Shown: positions 548 through 19,816, counted from the first letter of the stretch. The stretch is DNA of 25,705 nt from a virus (IMGVR_UViG_3300034118_000868:1-25705), one strand, 5' to 3'. Made by a program: numbers and translations. The notes: a model not told the origin generated them from the letters alone.

Positions 548-1564
548 ATGCTAGTTACTGACAGTCACAACACGACAGCAACGCCTGTCGTTCAACAACC
601 GCCGCGTTTGCTGGCGCAAATCCGTGCCTTGCTCAGAACCAAGCATTACGCCTTACGCACCGAGCAGGCCTATATCCACTGGGTGAAGCGGTTCATCTTC
701 TTCCATGGGAAACGCCATCCGAAGGATATGGGGGCGCCCGAGATCGAGTCGTTCTTGTCTCACTTGGCGACAGAGAGAACCGTGGCGGCGAGCACTCAGA
801 ATCAGGCGCTGGCGGCCTTGCTGTTTTTGTACCGCGACGTCCTGGACGTGGACTTGCCTTGGCTGGACAACATCACCCGGGCGAAGCCGAGCAAGCATTT
901 GCCGACGGTGTTAACCCAGGCTGAGGCAGCTTCACTTATCCGGCATTTGAAGCCGGATACGAATGGGCTGATCGTGCAGCTGCTGTATGGGACCGGGATG
1001 CGGCTGCTGGAGTGCCTGCGGCTGCGGGTGAAAGATCTGGATCTGGCTTCGTTATCGGTAACGATCCGGGACGGCAAAGGGGGTAAGGATCGGGTGACGA
1101 TGTTGCCGTCGAAGTTGGTGCAGCCGTTGCGGGAACATCTGGTCGCTCGGCGCCGTTGGCATGACGTCGACCTAGCTTCCGGGCACGCGGATGTGGAGTT
1201 GCCGGATGCGTTGAGGCGGAAGTATCCGAAGGCACCGATGGAGTGGGCGTGGCAGTATGTTTTCGCCGCGCCGACCTACTCGCGCGATCCGCGTTCCGGG
1301 GCGGTTCGCCGGCATCATTGGGGCGAGCGGAATATTCAGCGGGCGGTGAAGGCGGCGGCGTTCGCGGCGGGCATTGCGAAGCCGGTGCATCCGCACTGTT
1401 TGCGCCACTCGTTCGCCACACATCTACTCGAAATGAATTACGACATCCGGACGGTGCAGGAGCTGCTTGGCCACTCGGATGTGAAGACGACGATGATCTA
1501 TACCCACGTGCTTAATCGCGGTGGGCGTGGGGTGGCGAGCCCGCTGGATCGGATCTCCTCATGA
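548..1564 (+). CDS. intI: Integron-type tyrosine recombinase (IntI family)
   Basis: A 338-residue site-specific tyrosine recombinase that resembles integron integrases far more than ordinary phage integrases. The N-terminal domain has the IntI-like stretch around [15 protein letters not shown] (about 36-50). The catalytic residues are Arg152 (GTGMR), Lys180 (GKGGKDR), His283 and Arg286 (HPHCLRHSF), His309 (LLGHSD) and the nucleophile Tyr318 (TTMIYTH). The integron-specific extra segment lies at about 217-240 ([13 protein letters not shown] through WAWQYVFA), followed by [11 protein letters not shown]. IntI enzymes recombine attI with folded single-stranded attC sites. A strong AGGAGG lies seven bases before the ATG. 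The gene ends in an ATGA overlap with the next phage gene, so it is built into the operon. No attC array or full attI is seen. It may serve as the phage's own integrase; that is inference. Confidence 0.94.
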
Positions 1565-2205
1565 CCGAGCTACTCCTATTCGCCAGCGTCTACGTCTCGG
1601 TGTTTGCCCTTGGCTTCCAAAGCCAGAACGTCAACCAGGGCCACTACAAATCCGCCTTTCTGACCAGTTTCGCCATTGGCGCTGGCCACCTGGCTCTCTA
1701 TCGCCTCATGCCCGGAGCAAGCCCGAGCGAGGTCGCCGCCTTTCTGGCTGGCGGCCCGTTCGGCATCGTATCCAGCATGTACGCCCATCGCCAAACACTT
1801 GGGAGAAAAACCAATGGCAACCACACGCCGGAGAAAACACGGAAGTGGGAAGCCGACGCGAAGGACCAGGCCAGGGCAGCGATGGGCGGAGAGCCGCCCC
1901 TGCAAGGACCGCTCAAGGTCGAGGTCATCGCCTACTTCGCACCAGCGCAAAGCTGGCCGGACTGGAAACGCCAGGCAGCCCTGAACGCACAGATCGCGCA
2001 CACCAGCCGACCCGACGCGGACAACATCGGCAAGGCGGCGAAGGATGCCCTCAACGGGGTGGCTTGGCTGGACGATTGCCAGGTGAAACGGGTCATCGTG
2101 GATAAGCGATTCAGCGACCAGCCCAGGGTCGAAATCTTCATCCGCAAGACCGGACAGGCCAGCAGCCAAGTGACGCGAAAAGACCAGATCAGGAGCGCAT
2201 CATGA
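1561..2205 (+). CDS. Membrane protein fused to a RusA-like Holliday junction resolvase
   Basis: A 214-residue protein of two parts. Residues 1-83 look like a separate small phage membrane protein with two or three hydrophobic segments ([35 protein letters not shown]). Residues from about 87 on are Rus[11 protein letters not shown], then [16 protein letters not shown] and WLDDCQV, which carry the acidic and lysine residues expected at the active site (Asp152, Asp154, Lys158, Asp171). RusA resolves Holliday junctions during phage recombination and replication. The usual N-terminal RusA strand and its KGRPR-like loop are missing, so the join looks like an in-frame product of an internal deletion. 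An out-of-frame ATG at 1814 with its own GGGAG may be the relic of the original RusA start. Translation is coupled to the recombinase gene through ATGA. Whether the fusion is active is unknown. Confidence 0.82.
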
Positions 2206-2516
2206 CGACATCAGAAGCGAACGCGATGATAAAAGCCTGGGTGGATTGGCACGGCGATTTATCAGGCGAAGATATTCCCGCAGTCAATTTGAGCTTTGAA
2301 AAAGGGTTCAACGCGGCGCTGGAATTCAAAGCGGAAGAAACAGCAGGGTTCATCAGCCAGATCAATGCCGACAGACATCAAGCGTTGGATTGGAAGCGCG
2401 GCTTCGAACGCTACGAAAAACTGAGAAAACTATCCCCGCGAAACTTCATGGAGCTATGGCACCGAAGCCTGGGCGGAGAGCGATTCGACGACCTAGTGGA
2501 CCGGATTAAAAAGTGA
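2202..2516 (+). CDS. Small phage protein of unknown function
   Basis: A 104-residue soluble, charged protein that starts in an ATGA overlap with the RusA fusion and ends in a GTGA overlap with the next frame. It has no membrane segment and no motif I recognise. The middle (FEKGFNAALEFKAEE) and the C-terminus look alpha-helical. The region has more A and T than the late genes, as is common for phage accessory genes. Coupling on both sides supports real translation. Confidence 0.75.
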   Translation: MTTSEANAMIKAWVDWHGDLSGEDIPAVNLSFEKGFNAALEFKAEETAGFISQINADRHQALDWKRGFERYEKLRKLSPRNFMELWHRSLGGERFDDLVDRIKK

Positions 2517-2524
2517 GGATGAGC

Positions 2525-2791
2525 ATGAACCAGAAAAGCCTTGATCGGCTGCAAGAAGCCATCGATGACCTCAAGCGATACCACCAAGAAACCGCCCAGG
2601 AACGCAGGGTCGTTATTCCAGAAACGAAAGCATGCTCATGGAAGCATGACGATGAAGATGGCGCGTTTGATACCGAATGCGGCAATCGATTTCTGATGGA
2701 AGACGGCACCCCGGAAGACAACGGATTCCGGTTTTGCCCCTACTGCGGAGGTAGGTTGGTGGTTGAAAGGGAGGGAGAAAATGAAGCGTGA
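2525..2791 (+). CDS. Small zinc-ribbon-like phage protein
   Basis: An 88-residue protein with cysteines at CSWKHDD, TECGN and CPYCGG, a pattern typical of small phage zinc-ribbon proteins of unknown role. The frame is open from a GTG at 2513 that overlaps the previous stop, with ATG at 2519 and 2525. I chose 2525 because GAGG lies about six bases before it. The N-terminal part (LDRLQEAIDDLKRYHQE) is a likely helix. It overlaps the next gene by eleven bases. Confidence 0.75.
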   Translation: MNQKSLDRLQEAIDDLKRYHQETAQERRVVIPETKACSWKHDDEDGAFDTECGNRFLMEDGTPEDNGFRFCPYCGGRLVVEREGENEA

Positions 2792-3305
2792 TGAAACAAC
2801 GTCCACAGGATTATTCCTGGACCGTAAAACCGGATGGCTGATCGATAAACGGCTGCGCCAAACAATGGCACCAACCGTGATGCGCATCATCACTCACATG
2901 GAAGTGCACACGAAGCCGATCGATGCCATCGATTTGGCGGAGAAGGTGCACGCGGATCGCAACGGCGTGGCGAAATACCTCGGACAGTTGCACGAAGCCG
3001 GCATTATCCGCATCGCCGGATGGCGCAAGCCGCGCGAGGGCAGCCCAGGTGCTTACTCACGCCTTTTCGCAATGGCAGACGGTAAGCGAGACAAGCCGCA
3101 CCCCCCGCTGCCACACCCGACAAAAACCTGCCGAGAACGGCGGGAACGGCTGCGTGCGCTGCTGGGGGAACACTACGGCGCGGTCAATCAATCGCGCCAT
3201 AAAGGCGGCGCGGAAGTCCTATCGATTGCAGGGCATCTGGTATATCGGCGCGGCAGCGGGGTCGATTACGACGCGCTGAGACGGGCACAAGGGGACCGAC
3301 TATGA
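2781..3305 (+). CDS. Winged-helix DNA-binding phage protein
   Basis: A 174-residue protein with a probable winged helix-turn-helix near the N-terminus: VMRIITHMEVHTKPIDAIDLAEKV, then DRNGVAKYLGQLHEAGIIRIAGWRK, the pattern of a two-helix reader followed by a wing. The C-terminal half is basic (KTCRERRERLRALLG). The frame extends back to a TTG at 2763, but the ATG at 2781 has a purine-rich GGGAGGGAG just upstream and is preferred. It may be a transcriptional regulator or a replication-associated protein; the exact role cannot be read from the sequence. Its stop overlaps an ATG at 3302. Confidence 0.78.
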   Translation: MKRDETTSTGLFLDRKTGWLIDKRLRQTMAPTVMRIITHMEVHTKPIDAIDLAEKVHADRNGVAKYLGQLHEAGIIRIAGWRKPREGSPGAYSRLFAMADGKRDKPHPPLPHPTKTCRERRERLRALLGEHYGAVNQSRHKGGAEVLSIAGHLVYRRGSGVDYDALRRAQGDRL

Positions 3306-3463
3306 CAACGATCAACGACCTACTGGCGAGCAAGCCGCGCCGCGGACTCAGCCGGAAGGCCGGTTATCCACCCGTAGTATTAGACGCTTTTACCAGGCTA
3401 ATCCCACCCGAATCCGCGCCTCAAATTCTGGGCGTGCAGACGTATCAACGCGCACCTGATTGA
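3302..3463 (+). CDS. Possible small or truncated gene at the convergent junction
   Basis: A 53-codon frame that begins in an ATGA overlap with the winged-helix gene (MTTINDLLASKPRRG) and runs head-on into the 3' end of the leftward lysis operon, overlapping it by 74 bases. Coupling supports the first half. The second half is antisense to a good gene, so this may be the stump of a longer early gene cut off at the junction. No family recognised. Confidence 0.3.
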   Translation: MTTINDLLASKPRRGLSRKAGYPPVVLDAFTRLIPPESAPQILGVQTYQRAPD

Positions 3464-3986: not shown

Positions 3987-4477
3987 AGCTGATCGCCGAG
4001 GCATTGCCGGTACTCGCCCTGCCGGCGCTTGGCCAGGCCGCCGCACAGGCGGGCATTGGCGGGCAGATTGCAGTCTCGGCCCTGGTAATAGGTCCAGCGC
4101 AGGATCTCTCGGCAGGCGCCCGGATAGTCGTGGCCATTGAGCTTGCGCACCAGCGTCGACCGGCAGAACGCACCGGGCCCAACGTTGTACGCCAGGCTCA
4201 AATAGGCGTCGTACTCGTGCTGGTACAGCGGCGCCGTGACGCACTGGCGCAGCGCGCCCTCGTATTTGGTGACATCCGCCATGGCGCGAGCCAGCGCCAC
4301 CGGGGGCGTGATCGTGTCGCCCAGCCGAACGCCTGATGTCGAGCCGAATCCGATGGTCGGCACGTCGCCCGGCACCGGGATGACGGCGCGGGCGGTGTAG
4401 TCCTCATGGGCCACGATGCCGACCAGTCCGGCGGCGGACAACGACAGGGCGGCAATGGCGATCCGTATTTTTGACAT
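3983..4477 (-). CDS. SAR-type endolysin (glycoside hydrolase 24 lysozyme)
   Basis: A 164-residue phage lysozyme that cleaves peptidoglycan glycan strands. The N-terminus (IAIAALSLSAAGLVGIVA) is a weakly hydrophobic segment rich in Ala, Gly and Ser, as in signal-anchor-release endolysins of phages P1 and 21. Catalytic Glu25 (AHEDY) follows at once, then Asp38 and Thr41 in GDVPTIGFGST, matching the E-D-T triad of the family. LSLAYNVGPGAFCRSTLVRKLN is the conserved mid-region. The start at 4477 has GAGGAAG about nine bases upstream. It lies two bases after the holin stop and overlaps the next gene by four. Confidence 0.93.
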   Translation of the reverse strand: MSKIRIAIAALSLSAAGLVGIVAHEDYTARAVIPVPGDVPTIGFGSTSGVRLGDTITPPVALARAMADVTKYEGALRQCVTAPLYQHEYDAYLSLAYNVGPGAFCRSTLVRKLNGHDYPGACREILRWTYYQGRDCNLPANARLCGGLAKRRQGEYRQCLGDQL

Positions 4478-4479
4478 GG

Positions 4480-4677
4480 TCAGTCTTCCTCGATCGGCAA
4501 CGTGCAATTGGCCCGGGCGATCTTGCGCAGCTCCCGCTTGTGCATGACGTTGTGGGCGAAAGCGGCGATGGCGACCACGCTGCCGATGACGGCAGCCCAG
4601 TCATTGAGCGTCAGGCCGCCTAGGATGGCCGCTCCGGATGCTGAATAAGTGATGAATCCGCTGACTCGACCTAGCAT
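4480..4677 (-). CDS. Small holin, pinholin-like
   Basis: A 65-residue protein with a first membrane segment rich in Gly, Ala and Ser (FITYSASGAAILGGL), a second one (WAAVIGSVVAIAAFAHNVM) and a charged tail (HKRELRKIAR). This order resembles phage 21 pinholin S21, whose first segment leaves the membrane before small pores form. Pinholins depolarise the membrane and activate SAR endolysins, and a SAR endolysin gene follows directly. A GTG at 4683 overlaps the previous stop, but GGGAG about five bases before the ATG at 4677 makes that the better start. Confidence 0.83.
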   Translation of the reverse strand: MLGRVSGFITYSASGAAILGGLTLNDWAAVIGSVVAIAAFAHNVMHKRELRKIARANCTLPIEED

Positions 4678-4679
4678 GA

Positions 4680-5075
4680 TCACTCCCTCAACAGTTTTTC
4701 CGCCGCCTCGGCGGTGATGGGCAATCCATAGCGCTCGGCGATGAACCGCGCGAACACAGCCCGTCGGTCATCCGGATAGCACCGCGCCTGCGCCCTGTAG
4801 GACTGCACCTCGCAGTGCAGCCGATACTCAGGCAGCCAGGTATACAGGGCCGTATGCAGCAGCGCGCCGATGGGCGAAAGCGCCGGTGCGATCAGGTAGA
4901 TCGCCGCGACGCCGAGGATGGTCAGAGTCAACCACTGCATGACGTGGGTCAGCTCGTGCCGATACAGCCCGGCATCGCCTCGGCAGCGTGGTCGGATGAA
5001 GATCACCGGGCCGCGTGCGCAGGCCTGGTGCGGCTCTGGCACGAAACGGTCGGCGTAGATGGTCAGCAAACCCAT
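4680..5075 (-). CDS. HExxH metallopeptidase-like membrane protein in the lysis cassette
   Basis: A 131-residue protein with a zinc-peptidase motif, HELTH at residues 40-44, followed by a hydrophobic segment (about 49-66) and a possible third ligand Glu89 in HCEVQSYRAQ. HExxH with a downstream Glu is the usual pattern of gluzincin-type peptidases, though the protein is small. I used the ATG at 5075; the frame extends to a TTG at 5102 that is less likely. It sits directly before the holin and overlaps its start region, so a role in late lysis, envelope damage or processing is suggested. Activity is not established. Confidence 0.68.
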   Translation of the reverse strand: MGLLTIYADRFVPEPHQACARGPVIFIRPRCRGDAGLYRHELTHVMQWLTLTILGVAAIYLIAPALSPIGALLHTALYTWLPEYRLHCEVQSYRAQARCYPDDRRAVFARFIAERYGLPITAEAAEKLLRE

Positions 5076-5143
5076 ATCAACACCCCGGCAAGGCTCGCCC
5101 AAAACGCCAGCAGCATCAGCGCCACTTGTCGAACAGTCGGCAT
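5063..5143 (-). CDS. Possible 26-residue single-span membrane peptide
   Basis: A short frame begins three bases after the previous stop and ends inside the start of the HELTH gene, filling an otherwise empty 70-base gap. It encodes one hydrophobic span (VALMLLAFWASLAGVLIWV) with a basic residue near the start. No clear ribosome site is seen. It could be a real tiny lysis-cassette peptide or only a translational relay. Confidence 0.35.
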   Translation of the reverse strand: MPTVRQVALMLLAFWASLAGVLIWVC

Positions 5144-5145
5144 GG

Positions 5146-5547
5146 CTACAGCCCCAGCGCGGCTTTTTGCTCGCGGCCCCAGGCGCGGCAGGCCTCGACG
5201 TGGTCGTTGTAGGCCGTCGACTCCGCGCTCGGGGCGAGGCGGATCATTTTGATCTCGTCGTCCATGCTGTAGCGCTCGCGCACTCGCTCGACCACCCTCT
5301 GGTTGATTAGTCGCACATGCGGGCTGGCGGCCTTGATCTCATCGCGCAGGGAGTCGGTCAGCGCGACGGCGGCGATGCTGGCGGCGATCTCATCCGGCTG
5401 CTCGACTGGCAGCGTGGCGCCGGCGGGCAGGCAGACGTAGGTCGTACCGTCGCTCAGTGTGGCCAGCTCGGTGGCGCCGTCAGGCGTGCGCAGTTCGCGG
5501 GTGACCTGGCTGGTGATAAATTTTCGGTAGGCGACAATAGAGGTCAT
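5146..5547 (-). CDS. Phage protein of unknown function after the DGR
   Basis: A 133-residue soluble protein starting inside the last 68 bases of the reverse transcriptase gene, with GGAG seven bases before the ATG. Residues 1-45 look beta-rich and the rest alpha-helical (DEIKAASPHVRLINQRVVERVRER; DHVEACRAWGREQKAAL). Its place between the tail/DGR module and the lysis genes is where many phages carry tail-fibre assembly chaperones, but I see no chaperone motif. The overlap with the RT means that it may be co-translated with it. Confidence 0.77.
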   Translation of the reverse strand: MTSIVAYRKFITSQVTRELRTPDGATELATLSDGTTYVCLPAGATLPVEQPDEIAASIAAVALTDSLRDEIKAASPHVRLINQRVVERVRERYSMDDEIKMIRLAPSAESTAYNDHVEACRAWGREQKAALGL

Positions 5548-6496
5548 GGTGATGCTCCATCAAGAGGCGCAGCAGGTGCTGCAAAGAGTGGGTTTTTCTG
5601 GCGTGGCCGAGGATACTGACTACGCTATCCATGGCGCCGCGCTTGGCGGCGGATTTGAAGGTGTAGAGGCTGTGCCGGCGGATAAAGCGCCGGCTTGACC
5701 AGGTCCTGAAGCCGACGAAATTAATCCCGCGCCTGACCATGGCCAGGGTTGATCGCGACAGCGTAAGACGCAGGCCAACCAGGTAATCGACCACACGATC
5801 TCGGGCGGTGATTGCGGCCTCGCGGGTCAGGCCGAATAGCACGAAGTCGTCGACGTACCGGCAATAGCGCGGCGGCTTGATCTCGCGCCGGATGAAGTGG
5901 TCCAGCGGGCTCAGGTAGATCAGCGCGTAGAGCTGGCTCAGCAGGTTTCCGATTGGGATGCCGACCGGTTCACCGTGGTCAGCGAAGGCCATCATCAGGT
6001 CAACGAAGCGGCGGTCCTTGATCTTGCGCTCGATCAACGTGCGCAGGATAGGGCGATCAATGCGGTAAAAAAACTTTCTGATATCCAGCTTCAGCGTGTA
6101 GCTGTCGCGCGGACAAGCCTGTAATGCAGCCTGGGCGTAGTCCGCCGCCCTATGGGTACCTAGCCCGGTCCGACAGGCAAACGACTGATCGATAAAGCCA
6201 CGATTGAATACGGGGTACACCACGGCATAGATGGCATGCTGCACCACCAGGTCGCGAAAGGCGGGCGCGTAAATCTGCCGCGTCTTGGGCTCGTGCACCA
6301 TGAAGCTGTAATAGGGCCGTGGCCGGTAGGTGCCGGCGTGCAATTCGTCGTGCAGGGCGGCCAAGTTGGTCGCTAAGTGTTTCTCGAACTGAAAGCAGGC
6401 GCGCTTGCCGCGCTTGTGCCGTGCCGCGGCGTGAAAGGCCGACAGCAGCGCCTCGCGCGTGAACGCCTGCTCGAATAAATAACCGATGCGTTTCAT
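5480..6496 (-). CDS. DGR reverse transcriptase
   Basis: A 338-residue reverse transcriptase of the diversity-generating retroelement class. It has the first catalytic Asp at 138 (LKLDIRKFF), the motif GIPIGNLLSQ at 179-188, where DGR enzymes carry an xGxxxSQ form, and the catalytic YVDD at 214-217. The last ~90 residues are basic (thumb). In a DGR the enzyme, with Avd, copies the TR RNA and misincorporates opposite adenines; the cDNA then replaces VR. The neighbours (Avd, TR, VR target) support this assignment over group II intron or retron enzymes. The ATG overlaps the stop of the frame running through the TR (ATGA). Only a weak AAGG lies upstream, so expression may depend on coupling. Confidence 0.97.
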   Translation of the reverse strand: MKRIGYLFEQAFTREALLSAFHAAARHKRGKRACFQFEKHLATNLAALHDELHAGTYRPRPYYSFMVHEPKTRQIYAPAFRDLVVQHAIYAVVYPVFNRGFIDQSFACRTGLGTHRAADYAQAALQACPRDSYTLKLDIRKFFYRIDRPILRTLIERKIKDRRFVDLMMAFADHGEPVGIPIGNLLSQLYALIYLSPLDHFIRREIKPPRYCRYVDDFVLFGLTREAAITARDRVVDYLVGLRLTLSRSTLAMVRRGINFVGFRTWSSRRFIRRHSLYTFKSAAKRGAMDSVVSILGHARKTHSLQHLLRLLMEHHHDLYCRLPKIYHQPGHPRTAHA

Positions 6497-6635
6497 GCCG
6501 CCAGGCCTTCGAGACGGCGAGCCGCCCTACCAGCAAGGCGCATGCACACCGATTTCGCCGAGGCTTGCGCCTCGCGCCGGAAGGCGTCTCCCTTGGTTCC
6601 ACTTCGATCTTTCGATCCGTGAGGTGAAGCCGAGT
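6497..6635 (-). ncRNA. Structured spacer of the DGR template RNA
   Basis: The 139 bases between the TR and the RT start would be the 3' part of the template RNA. In the coding direction I see three short hairpins with tetraloops: GATC-GAAA-GATC (6606-6617), CGCC-UUCC-GGCG (6575-6586) and CGAGGC-GCAA-GCCUCG (6559-6574, six perfect pairs, GNRA loop). In BPP-1 the region downstream of TR is needed for Avd-RT-primed cDNA synthesis, so a similar role here is plausible. The exact RNA ends are unknown. Confidence 0.45.
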
Positions 6636-6746
6636 CCGCGCGGAACCCAACGTTATCGTTCGAGTTGCCCCGCGCATTGTTGAGATTCAACGCCCAGACC
6701 CCCGCGTTCGAGGAGTTGTTCCAGTTGCCGCCGGCAATCGGGCACA
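6636..6746 (-). repeat. DGR template repeat (TR)
   Basis: A 111-bp sequence between avd and the RT that matches VR (7188-7298) without gaps except at 12 positions. On the coding strand every mismatch is an A in the TR. Of 22 adenines in the TR, 12 differ in VR and 10 are unchanged. The variable codons are AAC or AAT (Asn) and one GAT, the arrangement that lets A-mutagenesis reach many amino acids without making stops. The 3' end (GTTGGGTTCCGCGCGG) is A-free and identical in VR, as expected for the region where mutagenic homology starts. Confidence 0.96.
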
Positions 6747-6748
6747 TG

Positions 6749-7156
6749 TCAAGACGCCTCCCGTTTGTCGAGCACACGCTCGGCGACTATCCAGCCGCCG
6801 ATCATGCGCCCCAACTCATCCACCAGCCGCGAGAGGGCGAGGTAGCGATGCTCGCCCGTCGCCTCCGGCCGGTCGTTGCGCTGGCCGTCCTTGAACTCGA
6901 AATAGCCGAGCGTATGCGCCAGGCGCAGCAACATGCGAAGCTGCTCGTGGCGCACATCCAGGTTGGTCAGTGCGGTTTTCTTGTGATAACGCTTTTGCGC
7001 CTCCACGATGAAGCTATAGGTCTCGTAGGCCGCGCGCCGGATCTCCAGCGCGAGCCCGTACTTCTCGTGCTTCGGGAAGTGGTTGAGATAGACGTTCAAC
7101 AGCTTTGCCATCTCGCCGAACTTCCGGTCCAGCTTGGCTTCATCGTGCAGGCCCAT
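6749..7156 (-). CDS. avd: Accessory variability determinant (Avd), four-helix-bundle protein
   Basis: A 135-residue, all-helical, basic protein in the position of BPP-1 avd, between the VR target and the TR. Helices are evident around EAKLDRKFGEMAKLLNVYL, LALEIRRAAYETYSFIVEAQ, VRHEQLRMLLRLAHTLGYF and RYLALSRLVDELGRMIGGWI. The family forms a positively charged barrel-shaped pentamer that binds the RT and the template RNA and is needed for mutagenic homing. The length is near that of BPP-1 Avd. The start lies 17 bases past the target stop, has no good ribosome site, and sits in the arm of a 6-bp hairpin. Confidence 0.93.
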   Translation of the reverse strand: MGLHDEAKLDRKFGEMAKLLNVYLNHFPKHEKYGLALEIRRAAYETYSFIVEAQKRYHKKTALTNLDVRHEQLRMLLRLAHTLGYFEFKDGQRNDRPEATGEHRYLALSRLVDELGRMIGGWIVAERVLDKREAS

Positions 7157-7173
7157 CGCTATCGCTCGGGCCT
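7149..7173 (-). promoter_or_regulatory. Hairpin immediately downstream of VR, covering the avd start
   Basis: AGGCCC (7173-7168) and GGGCCT (7154-7149) pair perfectly over six bases around a 13-base loop that holds two copies of AGCGAT. It begins right after the target stop codon and 14 bases beyond the VR end. BPP-1 has a hairpin/cruciform just downstream of VR that promotes retrohoming; this one sits in a comparable place but has a shorter stem and larger loop. It also includes part of the avd ATG, so it may affect avd translation. Confidence 0.45.
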
Positions 7174-8532
7174 TCAGAGATACAAGGCCGCGCGGAACCC
7201 AACGTTAGCGTACGAGTCGCCCCGCGCACCGCTGAGAAGCAACGCCCAGACCCCCGCGCTCGAGGAGGTGCCCCAGTTGCCGCCGGCAATCGGGCACAGC
7301 TCGTTGGTGCTGTAGTCGTTGAGTTGATCGTTGCCGAACATATTCGACCCGCCGGCCACCAGCGGAATGCCTGCGCCGGCCATCTTCCAGGCGGTTCCGC
7401 TGGTGGCGTGACTGAGCACCTGGCTGGCGCTGCCCATGGTGATGGCGCGGTCGCTGAAGTTGACGGCGTAGCCGGTAAAGCTGTTCATCAGGCCGAGGTC
7501 GTCATAGAGCGCGGCAATGCCGGTGGCGCCCCACAGGTCGGTGGCCAAGGTGTTGCTGCCGGTAACGTCCTTCATCGCGGCGGCGGTCTTGAGCACATAG
7601 AAGTTGCCCACGGCCGGGTCGGAACTGTTCATTGTCAGGCCCGGGGTGATCTCCCACAGGTTGCCGTTCAGGTCGCACACCCCGCAGTTCTGGCCGTTGT
7701 GGGTGGTTCGGGCAAAGAAGTTGGCGCTGCCGGTCTTGGCGCTGTTTCCGCTGCCGTATCCGTCGTGGATGAATGCCAGCGTGGTGTCGTTGGCGTCGCC
7801 GAGGGCGTTGTTGTTGCAGCCCTTGGGGTGGTTTTTCACGCCGGTGGCGTCGTACCAGGCGCACCAGGTGGCGGCCGTGGCGGCCTGGCCATGGGCCAGA
7901 CTCAACAGGGCCAGGGCCTTGAAGATGAACAGGCTGGAGCAAAAGAAGCTCGCGCCACGTGTCTTTGCGGCGGCGATGGCGCCGGCGTAGGTGTTGGCCG
8001 GTGCGCCGCTCAGGCCGCCGAACGGGTTGTGCGCGGCAGCACTTGAAAGCGGCAGGCCGAGGCGGATCGAGCTGGCGACGCCGCTGTTGTTGCTGGCCAA
8101 GTACTTGTCGACGAACACGCCTGACTTGATCGCGCCGCCATCGTAGAAAGCTCTGTGGAGCGCATAGCCGGCGGTGTTGGCGGTGGCCACGTCGGCGTAG
8201 GTGCCGAACGGCTTGATGTCGACCAGGTTGACGGCCAGGCCGTTGCTGCCGGTGCCGATCTTGTAATAGTAGGCCGGCATCCAGCACATGACCGAGCCGT
8301 CGGAATACTGGTAGTTGCCGTAGTTGTCCGAGGCTGGGTCGAGCGTTCCGGACATCTCGGTCATTCCGGACGGCAGCGGGCCCGGGCAGATGCCGACGCC
8401 AAAGCCCTGCTGTCCGGCGATGCCGATGTCGTTGATGCCGCCGGCATTGCCGCTGCCGATGGCGATGCCGGTGGGGAAATAGACGGGGCCGCCGTCTTTC
8501 CCGGTGATCTGGCGGACGGATAGATTGCTCAT
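7174..8532 (-). CDS. DGR target protein with variable C-type-lectin/FGE-like domain (probable receptor-binding tip)
   Basis: A 452-residue protein whose last 40 residues are encoded by VR. Residues from about 80 on resemble the formylglycine-generating-enzyme/C-type-lectin fold used by many DGR targets: MPAYYYKIG, FVDKYLASNN, NGNLWEITPG (290-299, like the family GNVWEW motif), and the end CPIAGGNW...GVWAL...ARG...VGFRAALYL. The variable residues are 421, 422, 425, 432, 434, 435, 439, 441 and 442 (now G, T, S, L, S, G, D, Y, A). In BPP-1 the matching residues line the receptor-binding face of Mtd. The start is in an ATGA overlap with the previous gene and has GGAG six bases upstream. It is the last tail gene, so it probably binds the host surface. 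Confidence 0.95.
   Translation of the reverse strand: MSNLSVRQITGKDGGPVYFPTGIAIGSGNAGGINDIGIAGQQGFGVGICPGPLPSGMTEMSGTLDPASDNYGNYQYSDGSVMCWMPAYYYKIGTGSNGLAVNLVDIKPFGTYADVATANTAGYALHRAFYDGGAIKSGVFVDKYLASNNSGVASSIRLGLPLSSAAAHNPFGGLSGAPANTYAGAIAAAKTRGASFFCSSLFIFKALALLSLAHGQAATAATWCAWYDATGVKNHPKGCNNNALGDANDTTLAFIHDGYGSGNSAKTGSANFFARTTHNGQNCGVCDLNGNLWEITPGLTMNSSDPAVGNFYVLKTAAAMKDVTGSNTLATDLWGATGIAALYDDLGLMNSFTGYAVNFSDRAITMGSASQVLSHATSGTAWKMAGAGIPLVAGGSNMFGNDQLNDYSTNELCPIAGGNWGTSSSAGVWALLLSGARGDSYANVGFRAALYL
7188..7298 (-). repeat. DGR variable repeat (VR)
   Basis: The 111-bp 3' end of the target gene (codons 412-449), offset exactly 552 bp from the TR. The 12 differences from the TR fall in nine codons; three codons carry two changes each (Asn to Gly twice, Asn to Leu). 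All are substitutions at TR adenines and there are no other changes or gaps. This means the element was active recently relative to normal drift. Confidence 0.96.
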
Positions 8533-8999
8533 AGGATGCTCCAGTTGGCGTGGTCGTTGATGGTGACGGTGGTGCTCTCGGCGATCTCGAGCGGGCCGGC
8601 CGAGTAGGCGTTGTAGTGGCTTGGGATGGTGGTGTCCTGGGCGACCACGGAGGGGTTCATGCGGATCACCGGATTGAGGTCCGGGTTGGCCGCCAGGGCG
8701 GCGGTCCACGCGGCATCGGCGGCGTCACGGGCCGTCTCGGCCTGGGTCTTGGCCGTGGCCGCGGTGGCGGCGTTGCTGGCGGCCGACGCCAGGCCGGCCG
8801 ACATGGCCGCGGTGTAGGTGGATTGCACGGCGTCGTGCTTGGTCGTGACATCCGCCGCGTGGGCGGCGACCTCGGCGGCCACGACGTTGGTCTCGGTGAC
8901 CATCGTGGGCAAGGCCCCGAGCAGGGCGTCGGCCCGGGCGGAAAAAGTCTCCGGGTCGTTGCGGGACGGTGGCGTGGGTAGTGGCGTGATGCTGCTCAT
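8529..8999 (-). CDS. Tail-tip/fibre adaptor with alanine-rich coiled coil
   Basis: A 156-residue protein with a Pro-rich start, a motif common in phage tail fibres (NDPETFSARADALLGALPT, about 14-32), then a long Ala/Thr-rich helical stretch (about 40-105) likely to form a trimeric coiled coil, and a short C-terminal beta region (ESTTVTINDHANWSIL). It overlaps both neighbours by ATGA. Standing directly before the DGR target, it may be the stem or adaptor that holds the variable protein on the tail; that is inferred from position and composition. Confidence 0.8.
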   Translation of the reverse strand: MSSITPLPTPPSRNDPETFSARADALLGALPTMVTETNVVAAEVAAHAADVTTKHDAVQSTYTAAMSAGLASAASNAATAATAKTQAETARDAADAAWTAALAANPDLNPVIRMNPSVVAQDTTIPSHYNAYSAGPLEIAESTTVTINDHANWSIL

Positions 9000-9892
9000 C
9001 AGATCATCCCTTCAATCTCTAGGCTGCACTGGGACAGGGTTGGGTAGGCAATCTCGATGTCGAAATTGCGGTAGAAGCCGAACACGATCAGGGGCGAATA
9101 GATGTATTCGCCGCTTCCGATCCACAGGCATGGCGTGGCGCGCAGCTCGGCCAGCTTGCGCTGGACGTAGCCGAGCCGGGTGTTGTCGACCTGGACCGGG
9201 GCCGACATGCGCTTTGAGTAGTGGCGCTCGACAAAACTGGTGACGCCGAATGCGTCGGTCTCCTTGCGAGAGTAATCGATGATCCCGAACTGCGCGCCGT
9301 ATTGCGTATCGCCGATGTCGATGTTGTCGCCGACGACCAACATGCCGCACTTGGGTGTGCCGGACGACGCCAGCGAGACGGTGATCCGGCCGTCGCCATA
9401 GACCGGGATGTCGGTCAGCACCAGGTCGCGGCGCAGGTCGTAGGGCTCAAAGAAATAGGTGTACCAATCGATGATCGGTGTGTCGTCCAGGCTGATCGCG
9501 CGGCTGTACACGGTGGCGCCGACACCGTCGACCATGGCCACGTCCAGGCTGATGGCGTCCATCTCCATCAGCGCCAGGCTGTTGATCATGCCCGGCTCGA
9601 TGACGATGGTCAGCGGGCTGGTCGCCTCGACCGTCTGCGTGCTGACCGAGGTGTCGAACATCGCCCAGCGATTGGTCGGCCCGATATCCACCCACCAGGT
9701 CGGCGATGTCTCGGGCGTGTGGCCGGTGTTGGCCGCCTGCAGGCTCTCGTAGATCCGGTGCGTGCTGGCTTGGATGACCCGGTCGGCCAGGGCGTAGGTG
9801 GTGCCGGCGGCATAGGCGGCGTAGTCATCCTCCGGCACCGTGCTGCTGATCAGCATGGCGGTGGTGAGGGCGGTCGGCTTGATCACGTTCAT
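8999..9892 (-). CDS. Tail-tip structural protein with carbohydrate-binding-like segment
   Basis: A 297-residue beta-rich protein following the tape measure. Residues 28-80 (YAAGTTYALADRVIQ, then HRIYESLQAANTGH and PTWWVDIGPTNRW) have the short Tyr/Trp pattern of CBM5/12-type chitin-binding modules seen in phage tail proteins. The rest (IVIEPGMINSLALMEM; GRITVSLAS; FGVTSFVERHYSKR) looks like a distal tail or baseplate protein. GAGGG lies eight bases before the start, which overlaps the tape measure stop. It probably caps the tube and anchors the two following proteins. Confidence 0.82.
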   Translation of the reverse strand: MNVIKPTALTTAMLISSTVPEDDYAAYAAGTTYALADRVIQASTHRIYESLQAANTGHTPETSPTWWVDIGPTNRWAMFDTSVSTQTVEATSPLTIVIEPGMINSLALMEMDAISLDVAMVDGVGATVYSRAISLDDTPIIDWYTYFFEPYDLRRDLVLTDIPVYGDGRITVSLASSGTPKCGMLVVGDNIDIGDTQYGAQFGIIDYSRKETDAFGVTSFVERHYSKRMSAPVQVDNTRLGYVQRKLAELRATPCLWIGSGEYIYSPLIVFGFYRNFDIEIAYPTLSQCSLEIEGMI

Positions 9893-12800
9893 GCGGCTAC
9901 CCTCGTCGCCAGGGCGTCGCCGTCCGGCATGGCGCGGTCCAGCAGGCGGGCGGTCTTGGCGGTGTGGCTGACGGTGGCGCGGGTCTCGGCGCGCAGGCCG
10001 TTGACCTCCGCGCGCAGGCCGCGCAGCTCGGCCAGCAGGGCGGCGTTGTCCTGCCCGCCCTGGCCGCCACGGACCGGGATGCCGTAGCGGCGCAGGCCGG
10101 ACATGGTGGCGGCGTCGACCACCGCCTCGCCGGCATGCAGGCGGGCGGTGTAGTCGTCGTAGGGCACCCAGGGCAGGCCGTCGGCATGGCCCGGCAGCGT
10201 GGTGCCAAGGGTGGCGCCGAGGTGGTCGCGGATCTGCACCAGCACGTCGACGGTTGCCGATTTGCTCGCCTCGATGGCGGCGACGATCTGCTGGTCGGCG
10301 GTCTGCAGCCCGGTCTGCAAATTGGTCAGACCCAGGTCGATGCCGGACAGCAGGGCCAGGGCCTCGGCCTCGTATCCTGCCGGCGCCTGGGCGTCGACCC
10401 GGGCGGCGATGGCCTCGGCCTGGGCTAGGGCGCGGCCGGCCTGGCGCTGCCAGTCTGCCCGGGTGGCGGACTGGTCGGCCAGCCCAGCCACCAGGCCGGG
10501 CAGCAGCGTGCTGAGCTGGTCGGCATAGCCGGCCAGGACCGCGCCGCTGGTGCTCCCGGCCAGGGCGTAGGCCCGGTCGAACTGGCCGCGCACGTCGCCG
10601 AGCTGGCCGGCCTGGCCAAGCATCGAGGCACGGCCCTTGCCGATCTCGTCGCGCAACCGTCCGGCGCTGGTCGCCATCAGTTTTGCCAGGGCGTCCTGCG
10701 CCTGGTAATAGCGCATGGTCTCGCTGCGCAGGGCCTCCAGGGTGGCGATGGCCTGGGTGGCGTCGCCGGCATAGGCCAGGATGGCGTCGGCATAGTGCTG
10801 TTGGGCCAGGGTCAGGGCCTCCTGGGCGCCGGCGCTTCCGCCTAGGCTGGCGATCAGTTGCTCCTCGATCGCCATGGCGGCGCTGTTCGCGGCCAGGATC
10901 TGGTTGCCCTTGCTCAGGCTGGCGATCAGCGCCTTACCCTCGGCGTCGGCCTTGAATGCGGTCGCCTGGGACAGGTTGTTGGTGTATGTCATCTGGCCGT
11001 ACCCGGCCAGGCGGTTGGTCTCCTGGTTGTAGGCGTAGGCAGTGTTGCTCAGCTCGATCGGGCCGGACCGGGCGTTGAGATATACGCCGTGCTTGACGGC
11101 GATCTGGTACAGGCTGGCCACCGAGGCCTGGAGCGAGCGCACATCGCTGGCGTTTTCCGTCTCCAGACCGGCCAGGCGCTGCTCGGCGGACTGGGCGGCG
11201 CTGTATCGGTCCGATTCCGCCAGCACCGCCGTCATGCTGGGCAGGCTGAGCCCCGATCCGGCCGAGGCGATCGACTCGCGCAACTGCGCCGCCGTCGGCA
11301 CCGCCAGCGGGTTGATCTCCAGGGCCGAGGCGGCCACCGAACCGCGCACCTGAGCCAGGCTGGCCGCCACCTGCTGCAACGTCTGCGACAGGCTGGCCAG
11401 GTACTGCTGCTCCAGTTGATAGCGTGACATAACCGCCTGATGCAACTGCCCCTCCAGCTCGACCCGGGTCTGGATGTCCGACGTGTCGGCCAGCAGCCCA
11501 GTCAGTTTGCTGATGCTCTCTGTCGCCTGCCTGGACTGCGCCGCGGCGGCGGTCATGGTGCCGGACAGGACATCGATGTCCGTGCCCAGCGCGGCGCGGA
11601 TCGCGGCCGCGGTGTCCAGGGTCGCGGCCAGGCGCTGCAGGGTCGCGTCCACCTCCTCGCCAGTGCGGCGGAAGGCGTCCCACAACTGCGGCAGCGCGGT
11701 GCGCACCATGCCGTCCAGCACCGTCTTCATCCAGGCGTCGACGCCGGAGGCCGCACCCTTGTAGCTGGCCGTATACTTGGCCAGCCGGGCCGCGGCATCC
11801 TCGCCGCCGATCTGGGTCAGCAGCTTGGCCACCTGGCCCAGGCTGGCATCCATGCCAGACAGGTCGACGGCGGAGTAATTGGTCCAGTAACTGGAGTCGC
11901 CGAACCAGCCGCCCGATTCCTTGTATTGCGTGTAGCTCCGGCCCGAGGCGTCGGCGCCCTTGACCGACAGGTCCAGGCCCTGGTCGAACACCTTCACCTC
12001 GCCGCCGAAGATCGAGCTGCCGAACGCGCCCAGTATGCCAGCGGCAATCCAGCCCCAGACCGGGATAGACGACAGCGCCGAGCCGATGCTGCCGGCGATG
12101 GTCGACGACGCCGCCAGTCCGGCCTCCTGCGCCGCCAGCATGGCCGTCTGGGCCGAGCCGATGGCCGTGCCATAGGTCGCGGCGGTCGAGATCATCGAGC
12201 CGGTTGAGCCAAGGATGGCGCCGAGTGAGGTGGTGCCGTTGAACAACCCGCCGGCGGTGGCCGAGAGCATGTTCCAGGTGTTCCCGCCCATGGAAAACAG
12301 GTTGGCCAGGCTGGAGGCGTTGTTGATCGCGCCCAGGGCCGAACCGCCGCCGGCGCTGGCGTAGTTGGCCAGGCTGGAGCCGCCGCCCAGGCCAGAGGCG
12401 GACGCCATGCCGGGCATGAACATCGACGCCACGGCCCCGCCGATCGGCTGCACCACGGCCTGGACGATCGGCCTCAGCACCATGGTGTTGAAGGTCGAGA
12501 CGATGGTCGACGCCAGCGAATCCAGGAAGCCGCGGCCGTTCTCGAAGCCGCGCATCAGCGCGTCGGTCAGGCTGCGGTTGATGTCCTCAGCGGCCCGGTC
12601 CCATTCCTCGGCGGCGCGCAACGCCTCGTCGGCAGGCAGGAACCGGCCCTTGCTGTCGCGGAAGGTCTTGGCGATCGACTTCCCGGCCGCGTCCACCGCC
12701 TTGGCTGCGCCCTGGCTGCCGGTCTCGATCCCGTCCATGGTCTTCATCACCGCGCGGGAATAGACCTCCCAGGTGATCGTGCCGTCGGCCAGCATCTTCT

Positions 12801-15249
12801 CGTAGCCGGCCATGTCCTCGGCGGCGCGCTCGAACGGCGTGCGCAGGGAATTGGCCAGCGATTCGGCGGCACGTTGCGCGGCCTCGGCGACCTTGGTCTG
12901 GTCGGCGCTCCACTCCTTCCAGAGCGCCGCCTCGTCGGCTAGCGTGGCCTTGAGCCAGTCGGCGGTCAGCTTGTCCTTAGCGCCGTAGAGCGCCTGCTCG
13001 CCCAGTTTCTTGGCGGCGGCATGGACATCCTTGACCTTGGCCAGGATGCCGGCCTTCATGCCCTCCCCGGCCATCTCGCCGACCAGGAAGAACTGACGCG
13101 ACGGCGAATGGATATCGAGGGCGTCCCGGATCGCCTTGAGCGCGCCCTTGCCCAGGGCCTTGACCTCGTCCCACATCGCCTGGGCCTTGGCCTTGATGCC
13201 CTGGATGATGCCGTCGACGATCTGTCCGCCGACCGCCAGCCACTCCTTGGTCTGGGTCTTCAGGTAAGCGACCGCCTCGGTCAGCTTCTTGCCGATGCCC
13301 AGCTCGCCCTTGAGGGCGGCGGTCATGCCCTCGCGCAGGGCGGCGATCAGGTCGGCGCCGGCCTGTTTCATCTTTTCCCAGCCGCCCTTGATGGTCTGGA
13401 TGATGCCGCCCTCGCCCTCGATCAGGTCATAGAGCGCGGTGCCCAGGGTGGCGGCCTTGTCGCCGGTCAGGGCCTGCACCTGGCCGTCGATCCAGTCGGC
13501 GATATAGCCCCCCGCGGCATAGCCGGCCGCGCCAGCGGCGGCGAGGCCGAGCAGCGTGGCAACAACCGGATTGGCGGCCAGAAACGTGGCGACACCAGAC
13601 AGCGCGGTGGTAATGGTGCCAATGGCGGTGACGGTGGCGCCGATGCCGAGGATGACCGCGCCGCCGACAGCCAGGCCGGCCGAGCCGAAGATCAGCCACT
13701 TGGCCAGGTCGGGGTGGGCATCGACCCAGGCGCTGACGCTGTTCAGGCCCTCGAGTATTGCCCGGATACCGCCGCCCTCGCCGGACGAGGCGGTGGCGCT
13801 GATCTTGAGCTTGTCGATCTGCGCCGAGGTGGATTGCATCTGGGTGTCAAAATCCTTTGCCGAGACGCCCACAGCCTGGAACGCATCCTGGCCGATGCGC
13901 TTGTAGTCGTCCAGGTCCAGGATCAGGCGCTGAACGAACTGGCCGGCCTCGGCGTCGGGAAACAACTGGGCGATCTTGGCTGTGTCGCCGCCGGTCAGGC
14001 GCTTGATCTCGTCGGCCATGGTGCCGATGAAGTCGCCCGAGGCGCGGGCGCGCTGCTTGATCAGCTCCAGGTCGGCACCCATCTTGTCGAAGGTCTTGGC
14101 GGTGCTGTTGCTGTTGAGCTTGTTGAGCCAGTTGCCCAGGTTGTTGGCCGCGATCGAGGCATCGCCCGACGCGCGCCGGGAAATCTGCGCCGCGGCGGCC
14201 AGTTGCGCCAGGCCGGCGGTGCCCTTGATGCCCAATACCTCGGACTTGCTCGTCAGCATCTCGAAATAGCCGGCCATGTCCTTCAGCTCGAAGGCACCGT
14301 CCTTGCCGGCCTGGGCCATGATGTCGAGCATCTTTTTTGTGTCGCTGCTGGCGATGCCGAGTTTTGAAACGCCGGCCTCGGCGGCGATGGCCATGCTCAG
14401 GATATCGGCCTGGGCGGCGGTGGCGGCCTGGCCGATGGGCTTGAGCATGGCGAGGGCGGCCTTTGGATCCATGCCCTTGGCGACCAGGGTATTCAGTGCC
14501 TCAACCACGCTGGCCTGCTGCTGGTTGGTGTCCTTGGCGATCTGGTTGATGGCCCCGGTCCAGGCCGTGACGGCGGTCTTGGCCTGGTCACCAGCCAGGC
14601 CGGCGGTGCTGGCGATGCCGTAGAGTGATTTCTCAACGTTGATCGCTCCGCCCACCAGGCTGCGCAAGTCCAAGTCCATCTGGCCCAGGGCGGCCTGGCC
14701 GCCGCCACCGATGGCGGCGAGTCGGATGCCAACAGACTCGATCGCGCGGCCGGCGGCGGCGGTCTTGGTGCCGATCTCTTCGACTCGCTGCTTGAAGGCC
14801 TTGAGGCCGTCTTCGCGGCGCAGTTGCTCATTCAGCTGGGTCAACTGCCCGCCCAGATGATCGACATCAAGACCGGCCGAGCGCATCGATTCGCCCAGAT
14901 CGCGCAGGGTGCCGCGCTTGGCGTCCACCTGGGCCGCAAGGTCAAGCACCTCCTGCTTGGCCTCGCGGATGTCCCGGGCGAACAGCTTGGCGCCATCGGC
15001 GCCGCCGGTCTCGGCCGACTGCAGGAAAAAATCGCGCTTCTTCTTGGCCTCGACCAGGGCCGTGGACAGCGTGTCCAGCTCGGCCTTGAGGCCGTCGAAC
15101 AGCTTGATCTTTTCGACCCGCTGGGCGGTGATCGAGAGCTCGTCGAAATGCTTCTTCGCGCCCTGGATGGCGGTATCGAGCGGCTGGCTCAGCTCGTCCT
15201 GGAGCTTGAGCACGGCCGCCAAGGTGAGTGCCGTAGTGCCGTAGGCCAT
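9889..15249 (-). CDS. Tail tape measure protein
   Basis: A 1786-residue protein that sets tail length and is ejected with the DNA. The N-terminus is coiled coil (about 1-170). A conserved tape-measure domain follows (about 200-480, including AAEAGVSKLGIASSDTKK and NLGNWLNKLNSNS). Hydrophobic segments lie near 530-600 (LIFGSAGLAVGGAVILGIGA; ANPVVATLLGLAAAGAAGY), then Ala/Gln-rich helices. The C-terminal part has LHAGEAVVDAATMSGLRRYG, frequent near tape-measure ends. It is about twice the length of lambda gpH. GGAG in the preceding short frame lies nine bases before the ATG. Confidence 0.95.
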   Translation of the reverse strand: MAYGTTALTLAAVLKLQDELSQPLDTAIQGAKKHFDELSITAQRVEKIKLFDGLKAELDTLSTALVEAKKKRDFFLQSAETGGADGAKLFARDIREAKQEVLDLAAQVDAKRGTLRDLGESMRSAGLDVDHLGGQLTQLNEQLRREDGLKAFKQRVEEIGTKTAAAGRAIESVGIRLAAIGGGGQAALGQMDLDLRSLVGGAINVEKSLYGIASTAGLAGDQAKTAVTAWTGAINQIAKDTNQQQASVVEALNTLVAKGMDPKAALAMLKPIGQAATAAQADILSMAIAAEAGVSKLGIASSDTKKMLDIMAQAGKDGAFELKDMAGYFEMLTSKSEVLGIKGTAGLAQLAAAAQISRRASGDASIAANNLGNWLNKLNSNSTAKTFDKMGADLELIKQRARASGDFIGTMADEIKRLTGGDTAKIAQLFPDAEAGQFVQRLILDLDDYKRIGQDAFQAVGVSAKDFDTQMQSTSAQIDKLKISATASSGEGGGIRAILEGLNSVSAWVDAHPDLAKWLIFGSAGLAVGGAVILGIGATVTAIGTITTALSGVATFLAANPVVATLLGLAAAGAAGYAAGGYIADWIDGQVQALTGDKAATLGTALYDLIEGEGGIIQTIKGGWEKMKQAGADLIAALREGMTAALKGELGIGKKLTEAVAYLKTQTKEWLAVGGQIVDGIIQGIKAKAQAMWDEVKALGKGALKAIRDALDIHSPSRQFFLVGEMAGEGMKAGILAKVKDVHAAAKKLGEQALYGAKDKLTADWLKATLADEAALWKEWSADQTKVAEAAQRAAESLANSLRTPFERAAEDMAGYEKMLADGTITWEVYSRAVMKTMDGIETGSQGAAKAVDAAGKSIAKTFRDSKGRFLPADEALRAAEEWDRAAEDINRSLTDALMRGFENGRGFLDSLASTIVSTFNTMVLRPIVQAVVQPIGGAVASMFMPGMASASGLGGGSSLANYASAGGGSALGAINNASSLANLFSMGGNTWNMLSATAGGLFNGTTSLGAILGSTGSMISTAATYGTAIGSAQTAMLAAQEAGLAASSTIAGSIGSALSSIPVWGWIAAGILGAFGSSIFGGEVKVFDQGLDLSVKGADASGRSYTQYKESGGWFGDSSYWTNYSAVDLSGMDASLGQVAKLLTQIGGEDAAARLAKYTASYKGAASGVDAWMKTVLDGMVRTALPQLWDAFRRTGEEVDATLQRLAATLDTAAAIRAALGTDIDVLSGTMTAAAAQSRQATESISKLTGLLADTSDIQTRVELEGQLHQAVMSRYQLEQQYLASLSQTLQQVAASLAQVRGSVAASALEINPLAVPTAAQLRESIASAGSGLSLPSMTAVLAESDRYSAAQSAEQRLAGLETENASDVRSLQASVASLYQIAVKHGVYLNARSGPIELSNTAYAYNQETNRLAGYGQMTYTNNLSQATAFKADAEGKALIASLSKGNQILAANSAAMAIEEQLIASLGGSAGAQEALTLAQQHYADAILAYAGDATQAIATLEALRSETMRYYQAQDALAKLMATSAGRLRDEIGKGRASMLGQAGQLGDVRGQFDRAYALAGSTSGAVLAGYADQLSTLLPGLVAGLADQSATRADWQRQAGRALAQAEAIAARVDAQAPAGYEAEALALLSGIDLGLTNLQTGLQTADQQIVAAIEASKSATVDVLVQIRDHLGATLGTTLPGHADGLPWVPYDDYTARLHAGEAVVDAATMSGLRRYGIPVRGGQGGQDNAALLAELRGLRAEVNGLRAETRATVSHTAKTARLLDRAMPDGDALATRVAA

Positions 15250-18514: not shown

Positions 18515-19816
18515 TTAGGCGCGTGCGGCCAGGGTGGCGAAGTGGCTGCGGGTGGCGGCGCTGTTGGGCGGCGTCACGGCGGCGGACAGGGAGGGCTGGC
18601 CATCCATGCGGAACACCAGCTTGTAGGCGACGATGTCCTGGTCGAAGTGCAGGTGCATGGACTCGCTGAAGGATTCGCCGCCGGCCTTGGTGATGGAGCG
18701 GTAGCCGCCCATGTTGGCCAGGATCAGGTCGCCGACATCGCCGACGGTGTCACAGGCGTCGGTTTCGATCAGGGGCCGGCCGAGCAGGAAGCCGTTGGGC
18801 GCGCCCTGGAAGCCCTGGTTGTTCGGCACCCAGATCGGGTTGCTGTTGAGCGACAGGGTGATGATCTGGGGGAAGGCGTCCGGGTTGTGCAGCCATACCA
18901 CCGGGCCGCCGGCCTTGAACACCCGGGCGTACATCTTGGCGATGTTGGCGGCGACGATGGAGTCGGCGGCCTGGCTGGTTTCCTTGGCGACCTCCACCAC
19001 GGAGCCGCCGCGCAGGATGCCCAGGGGCTGGCCGACGCCGGTGCCGTTGATGATGGCGTCGTTGGACTTCCAACGCACGGCCTGGCCCATCTTGTTGCGC
19101 AGGTAGGCGGCCATGGCCTGGGTATCGGCCAGCAGCTCGTCGGTGGCCTTGACCATGCACACCAGCTTTTTCAGGCGCAGGTGGTCGAGACTGAGCACCG
19201 GCTTGCGCTCGGTGTTGGTATCGCCCTCGCCTTCCCAGTTCGCGATGACGCCGGTGGAGCCCCAGGGCGTGGTCTCGTCTTTGGGGAAGGACATGCTGTT
19301 GCCGGTGACCGGGGTGGAGTCGGTCATGGCCAGCAGGGAGTCTTCTTCCATGGCCAGGGCGGCGATGGCTTGGGCGAACTGGGGCGGGACGGCGAAACCG
19401 CCGTCGCCGCCGCTGCCTTCGTTGGCGTAGCTGGTGGCGGCGGCGCGTACCAGGCGCTCGTCGACGCGACCATTGCCGAGGGCGGCGTTGCGCACGTGGT
19501 GGGCAAATTCGCCGAAGTGTTTGAAACCGTTGGTCTGGGCGTCCAGGTTGTCCTGGGCCCGAGCCCCGGCGCCATAGGTGGCGTGGGCCGGGCCGGCGGC
19601 CATGGCCTTCATCAGGGCGGCGTTGAGCTGGTCTTTTTCCCAGCCCTCGGCGACGGCCTGCATGGCCAAGGCTTCGCCGCCGAACTTGGCGTAGGCCTTA
19701 CCGGTGTCGATCAGATCGCGGTTACGGGCCTGGATGTCGGCCAGGGCCTTGGCTTGGATGGCCTGCACATCCACCGGAGCGGCGGGGGCAGGGGCGGTGG
19801 TGGCGGGATCAGCCAT
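18515..19816 (-). CDS. Nested in-frame capsid product from an internal start
   Basis: Inside the protease-capsid frame, Met246 (MADPATTAPAPAAP) is preceded by AGGAG with a 7-base spacer, a better ribosome site than many gene starts here. Initiation there gives a 433-residue scaffold-plus-capsid protein without the protease, matching the length of stand-alone HK97-type capsid precursors. It is analogous to lambda Nu3, which is made from an internal start in C. It would solve the stoichiometry problem of the fusion. This is inferred from the sequence, not shown. Confidence 0.6.
   Translation of the reverse strand: MADPATTAPAPAAPVDVQAIQAKALADIQARNRDLIDTGKAYAKFGGEALAMQAVAEGWEKDQLNAALMKAMAAGPAHATYGAGARAQDNLDAQTNGFKHFGEFAHHVRNAALGNGRVDERLVRAAATSYANEGSGGDGGFAVPPQFAQAIAALAMEEDSLLAMTDSTPVTGNSMSFPKDETTPWGSTGVIANWEGEGDTNTERKPVLSLDHLRLKKLVCMVKATDELLADTQAMAAYLRNKMGQAVRWKSNDAIINGTGVGQPLGILRGGSVVEVAKETSQAADSIVAANIAKMYARVFKAGGPVVWLHNPDAFPQIITLSLNSNPIWVPNNQGFQGAPNGFLLGRPLIETDACDTVGDVGDLILANMGGYRSITKAGGESFSESMHLHFDQDIVAYKLVFRMDGQPSLSAAVTPPNSAATRSHFATLAARA

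Follow-up and report, generated by a model that had tools for sequence, protein, structure and literature searches.

Comparative evidence for a complete and active diversity-generating retroelement of a known kind in a siphovirus, with a covarying spacer RNA

The locus described here raises the question of whether a phage carries a complete diversity-generating retroelement (DGR) that is at work in nature, and of how such an element may copy its template, reach its target and move between phages. The window, that is, the whole stretch of DNA analysed, is the 25.7-kb virus record IMGVR_UViG_3300034118_000868:1-25705 (25,705 nt). A cassette lying entirely on its minus strand was found to hold all parts of a DGR, in the order target gene with variable repeat (VR), hairpin, avd, template repeat (TR), 136-nt spacer and reverse transcriptase (RT). 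The target tail gene (7174..8532) encodes 452 aa; the VR (7185..7298), a 114-nt repeat of the TR, forms its C-terminus and stops 11 nt short of the gene's end. The hairpin (7149..7173) lies directly after the target stop codon and is followed by avd (6749..7156, 135 aa), by the TR (6633..6746), which is 114 nt long and rich in AAC codons, and by an intact RT gene (5480..6496, 338 aa). A preliminary description had proposed a complete DGR in the order of phage BPP-1, and target, VR, avd, TR and RT were indeed all located in that order. It was silent on the hairpin, the structure of the spacer RNA, a conserved 133-aa gene downstream and an integron integrase, which are described below.

The RT carries the motifs YVDD and IGNLLSQ, which correspond to the YxDD and GxxxSQ of DGR-type enzymes. 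It matched RVT_1 (52 bits) and the PHROG family ‘Reverse transcriptase’ (318 bits, 3e-94), its closest solved relative was 8ub7 (E 6.9e-51), and 80 relatives could be aligned along its whole length or the greater part of it. Avd matched PF22296 bAvd with 66.3 bits against a cut-off of 40, as well as the PHROG ‘Avd protein of DGR’ (8.5e-23). Together with a target fold closest to TaqVP, a DGR variable protein of Thermus aquaticus, these results agree with the earlier view that the key parts are intact.

The TR and VR share 89% identity over 114 nt. All 13 mismatches fall on TR adenines, so that 13 of 23 adenines and none of the 91 other bases were changed (A>G 7, A>C 4, A>T 2). The same specificity was observed in 74 distinct TR/VR pairs from the window and its relatives, obtained in scans for RT relatives: 1117 of 1990 adenine sites differed, compared with 47 of 6422 other sites, and the adenines had been replaced by G in 589 cases, by C in 340 and by T in 188. 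No second VR was found within the window. The last mismatch (TR A 6635, VR C 7187) was rejected as a product of hypermutation because 68 of 69 distinct pairs have C at this VR position; since this difference is fixed across the family, the diversified count in the window becomes 12 of 22. The changed adenine nearest to the fixed C lies, as a rule, 16-19 nt upstream in the family comparison. The GACTC motif at the TR end was invariant in 34 sequences, and the VR codes for a fixed residue at this point. The fixed site is the boundary of the diversified stretch on its 3' side.

In order to judge activity, near-identical phages were compared. An identical RT was encoded by five IMG/VR records, four of which include the VR. 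In the four sister records the VR differed from that of the window at 13, 13, 15 and 15 adenine positions, whereas a single difference was detected among 24,171 compared bases outside the VR (five records, stretch around the cassette, window 4001-11000); these figures come from independently assembled records, possibly of linked samples, and do not date the events. All four sister records with a TR/VR pair carry the same TR, and each sister VR differed from its own TR at adenines only. Two records (L002 and L006) have the same VR, which gives four alleles in five genomes, window included. A second clade (80% RT identity) showed a similar picture: seven records with an identical TR carried six VR alleles, and the flanks near the cassette were identical or nearly so. 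The VR was therefore neither monomorphic nor drifting like its flanks, so that the condition which the preliminary description had set for its own refutation was examined and did not hold. Such hypervariation on a near-identical background indicates a DGR at work in nature, and the earlier description of the element as working holds for these assembled records. As judged by these comparisons, the DGR is complete, intact and naturally active.

It may be asked whether the element was once active and is now silent, the VR differences then reflecting an exchange of old alleles between phages through homologous recombination. Differences between assembled records alone give no date, and two records (L158 and L166) still differ in their VRs though no RT was seen in their fragments, as such a history would allow. 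The flanks of the window clade, however, lie 1 base apart in 24 kb while their VRs are 13-15 sites apart, so that the import of alleles would require breakpoints close to the repeat every time; moreover, the RT, Avd, RNA and hairpin have all been kept across the family. We regard a silent DGR as very improbable. Metagenomic phages as similar as these could also be mis-joined inside repeats during assembly, which would turn co-occurring strains into chimeras with apparent VR differences. Mis-joins do not make new adenine-specific substitutions, whereas each sister VR departs from its own TR at adenines only, and the VR common to L002 and L006 likewise speaks against an artefact; this explanation is improbable in the extreme. 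An active DGR is thus the preferred reading.

The RNA that would serve as template was found to be structured. The last 25 nt of the TR and the 136-nt spacer (6497..6657, minus strand) were aligned in 34 sequences and form seven helices. In this alignment 95.6% of the pair cells are standard pairs, compared with 37-49% when the partners were slid, and 22 of the 34 pairs show changes on both sides. The covariation score was 0.527, against at most 0.10 in the slid versions. When folded alone, the window RNA was unremarkable (z -1.07), and the support for the structure is its covariation. No family was matched in an Rfam search. With the covariance model built from the alignment (R1), the spacer RNA was detected next to RT relatives as distant as about 46% identity. 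In helix P1 the last TR bases and the first spacer bases (6634-6630) pair with 6596-6592; its four pairs are formed in every sequence, and two of them show compensating changes. A covarying spacer RNA that is absent from Rfam and pairs with the TR 3' end is a new detail of these elements.

P1 hints at the way in which cDNA synthesis may begin. In BPP-1, the known cDNA start is TR G117 and the priming base is spacer A56. These positions fit the BPP-1 sequence: pairing is possible between the bases that follow G117 and the spacer as far as A56, and this pairing (TR118-125/Sp49-56) has the same layout as P1, with two pairs, a mismatch and further pairs. The BPP-1 spacer gave no credible match to R1 (best 7.4 bits, inside brt); the priming analogy therefore rests on the layout and on these BPP-1 positions. 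By this analogy, P1 may set up self-priming of cDNA synthesis here too.

The hairpin after the target gene reads AGGCCC-GA-GC-GATA-GC-GAT-GGGCCT, with the avd start codon inside its 3' arm and a DNA fold z of -4.1. A GRNA loop, GATA in the window, was present in all 82 sequences bearing a TR and VR. The stem sequence varies among them with compensating changes; its tandem GA mismatches and the avd start in the 3' arm are found in the window and most close relatives. The corresponding hairpin of BPP-1 is needed for efficient homing (PMC3240598), and the window hairpin is, by analogy, the probable match of that element.

The target protein was evaluated next to its neighbours on the minus strand. 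Its PHROG matches include a tail-protein family, and no match was obtained in Pfam or NCBIfam. The AlphaFold model was of middling confidence (pLDDT 70, pTM 0.80). The best structural match of this model was TaqVP (5vf4, E 2.8e-10, TM 0.47-0.57), followed by weak matches to formylglycine-generating enzymes (FGE) and Mtd. The proposal of a C-type-lectin/FGE-type target ending in the VR is thus in line with the model. The target start overlaps the stop (ATGA) of a gene for a 156-aa tail-fibre-like protein (8529..8999; PHROG tail fiber, 2.3e-8), which is common to several DGR relatives. Upstream lie a gene for a 297-aa protein (8999..9892), probably a tail protein from its position after the tape measure (phrog_6278, function unknown, 1.4e-89), and the gene for the tape-measure protein itself (9889..15249, 1786 aa; PHROG tape measure, 1e-31).

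Farther downstream, the conserved 133-aa gene (5146..5547, minus strand), whose product has no recognised fold, begins within the RT gene, which it overlaps by 68 nt. It was found in 87 loci of RT relatives, nearly always overlapping the RT end. A search with its own profile gave 78 loci, 71 of them with an RT match upstream; in six of the remaining seven the target lies upstream of the 133-aa gene. Neither avd nor a full RT is left in five loci (L147, L158, L166, L202 and L216). In L147 (2906-3001) the avd-TR-RT block has been deleted, the first avd codons running into the last RT codons at a 6-nt ATTCAT, while target, hairpin and 133-aa gene are kept; this locus is a clean natural deletion derivative of the DGR. 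L158 and L166 encode closely similar 841-aa targets (434-2959) with different VRs and no DGR downstream, so the element was either lost recently or acts from elsewhere. The AlphaFold model of the 133-aa protein was of high quality (pLDDT 96). It had no clear structural match in the PDB, which does not make the fold new. Searches of Pfam, PDB and phage records gave nothing above noise except a weak match to PHROG 11820 and one to A0A516LIE3, an unnamed viral model (E 7e-6). A ‘tail assembly chaperone’ PHROG was matched weakly by 9 of 47 members (best E 0.0011), and the family was matched in 2 of 399 genomes of one host order. Bbp4 of BPP-1 was rejected as a homologue, as no similarity was detected by BLASTP or profile comparison.

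Two further alternatives concern the roles of these proteins. The 133-aa protein might be a DGR accessory factor that acts with RT or Avd and not the partner of the target, a role to which the start of its gene inside the RT gene and the RT alongside in 71 of 78 loci would both point. This assignment is weakened by loci that have a target without an RT: the target is just upstream in six of the seven RT-less loci, and avd and the full RT are gone from the five listed above. The weak chaperone matches argue in the same direction, and we consider an accessory role unlikely. The 133-aa protein appears to belong to the target because RT-less loci keep its gene after the target gene, and it is probably the target's assembly partner; it follows that avd-TR-RT would be nested between the target gene and that of its probable partner. 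As to the target, the DGR could work on a structural or otherwise non-receptor tail protein and create diversity without a switch of tropism. TaqVP, the nearest solved relative of the target, is not known to have a ligand, as would fit such a role. On the other hand, the target gene follows the tape-measure and tail-fibre-like genes, and its fold is related to those of known DGR variable proteins. Phage DGR lineages are also tied to host attachment proteins, according to a large survey (PMC8144416). A non-receptor target is, on balance, quite unlikely; in the preferred reading the tail tip presents many C-type-lectin faces, whose most likely use is to bind host receptors as these change, and the DGR would thereby switch tropism as the preliminary description had supposed.

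The distribution of the cassette was compared with that of the phage backbone. Most relatives whose target and RT are some 55-80% identical to those of the window have no terminase in common with the window phage. In 28 records tested, window included, a gpA terminase exceeded the cut-off in six and a contractile baseplate gene in three, so relatives of the cassette also sit in contractile-type records. Since the cassette is shared without the backbone, it moves between unrelated phages, and the 133-aa gene travels with it, as its 71 loci with an RT match show. Like the spacer RNA, the nested layout and the transfer and loss of the cassette are new details. The phages that exchange it probably infect mostly betaproteobacteria.

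The genes further upstream in the window encode tail tube, capsid, portal and terminase of a lambda-type siphovirus. The markers were the terminase (PF05876/PF20454), the portal (TIGR01539), two tail chaperones (PF08748 and PF08809) and the PHROG tape measure; Baseplate_J was absent from the window record, which is a fragment whose siphovirus type is read from its genes alone. The lambda-type assignment made earlier stands for terminase, portal and tail chaperones. The window departs from that type in having a fusion of ClpP-type protease and capsid protein, and no gpJ-like tail fibre was identified in it. The fusion (18515-20551, minus strand) joins a ClpP-like prohead protease to an HK97-type major capsid protein. 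The idea that the element is unusual because its phage is not a podovirus was rejected: siphovirus DGRs are already described (PMC8143477), so the contrast with the podovirus BPP-1 is no novelty.

We consider it highly probable that the locus is a complete, active phage DGR with a mobile, nested avd-TR-RT module, for which self-primed copying, hairpin-guided VR replacement and a receptor-binding tip are proposed. In the proposed mechanism, the transcript of TR and spacer would fold so that the TR 3' end pairs with the spacer through P1 and primes its own copying. A complex of RT and Avd would reverse-transcribe the TR, making errors at its adenines; with the hairpin behind the stop codon as guide, the cDNA would take the place of the VR at the target gene's 3' end. 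The resulting variety of lectin faces would reside in the tail tip, and the module between the target gene and that of its probable partner travels between unrelated phages.

An integron integrase gene (548-1564, plus strand; TIGR02249, 466 bits against a cut-off of 265) was also found in this phage. In G441 (L232/L233) and G442 (L230/L231), the right end of the window joins early genes and then the integrase, which places the integrase gene inside the phage genome and makes the map circular or permuted. The interval that separates the early genes from the integrase varies in content: it is occupied by queD in the window, by small ORFs separated by six attC-like sites in G441, and by a single such site with no additional ORF in G442. 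Immediately 5' of the integrase, otherwise near-identical phages thus carry different DNA, and in every record the breakpoint beside intI lies at 484/485, at an AAC (GTT) core. The seven attC-like sites were picked by eye; three fold well as DNA (z -3.0 to -4.8) and four do not, and two automatic scans found no more than one or two of the seven. The DNA beside the integrase in the sister records is therefore likely, not proved, to be a gene-cassette array, and an active phage-borne integron is possible. Integrons are rare in phages: 10,705 genomes yielded three complete integrons and one integrase that lacked cassettes (PMC9892861). That one phage combines two programmed diversity systems, a DGR rewriting its tail tip and an integron cassette array exchanged between near-identical phages, is put forward tentatively, with slightly more doubt than confidence. 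In the same region, a plus-strand gene (1561-2205) whose start overlaps the integrase stop apparently joins a holin-like membrane segment, at the N-terminus, to a RusA-type resolvase. The stretch 1820-3371 (plus strand) is replaced by other genes in L005 and G442 with both sides identical, and G441 diverges from the window at 3341.

At this locus, DGR action in nature can be read cleanly against genomes that are otherwise nearly identical. The locus also provides a covariation-supported model of a DGR spacer RNA outside BPP-1, so that self-priming can be tested in another lineage, and the nested layout with its deletion derivative shows how phages gain and lose DGRs. Should the integron be active, the virus would offer a natural setting in which to test two diversity generators at work in one genome.

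Compared with known systems, the window shares with BPP-1 (mtd-avd-TR-brt) the gene order, the adenine-specific change from TR to VR, Avd, a hairpin with a GRNA loop after the VR and a TR end that pairs with the spacer in a like layout. BPP-1 differs in being a podovirus, in an RT 36% identical to that of the window and in a spacer RNA not found by the present covariance model. Its hairpin differs from that of the window, which carries tandem GA mismatches in the stem and extends over the avd start, and Bbp4 stands in place of the 133-aa gene without a detectable relation between them. TaqVP resembles the target in structure and also in sequence at the VR end, but it has 16-17% identity over the fold and comes from another organism and another element. 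The closest isolate RT (60%) was that of Pseudomonas phage Bise (OR683401), where genes for a hypothetical protein, a four-helix-bundle (avd-like) protein and an RT stand in that order; Bise, however, is contractile-tailed, and its genes gave no match to the 133-aa protein. Siphovirus DGRs have been described in Bacteroides uniformis phages (PMC8143477), and a survey of >30,000 DGRs reported wide activity of phage-associated elements (PMC8144416). These DGRs belong to other lineages than that of the window, and in the passages of the two papers that were examined neither spacer-RNA covariation nor a nested layout of target and partner was found described. The present DGR is of a known kind, and its guide RNA and its integration into phages are unusually well documented here.
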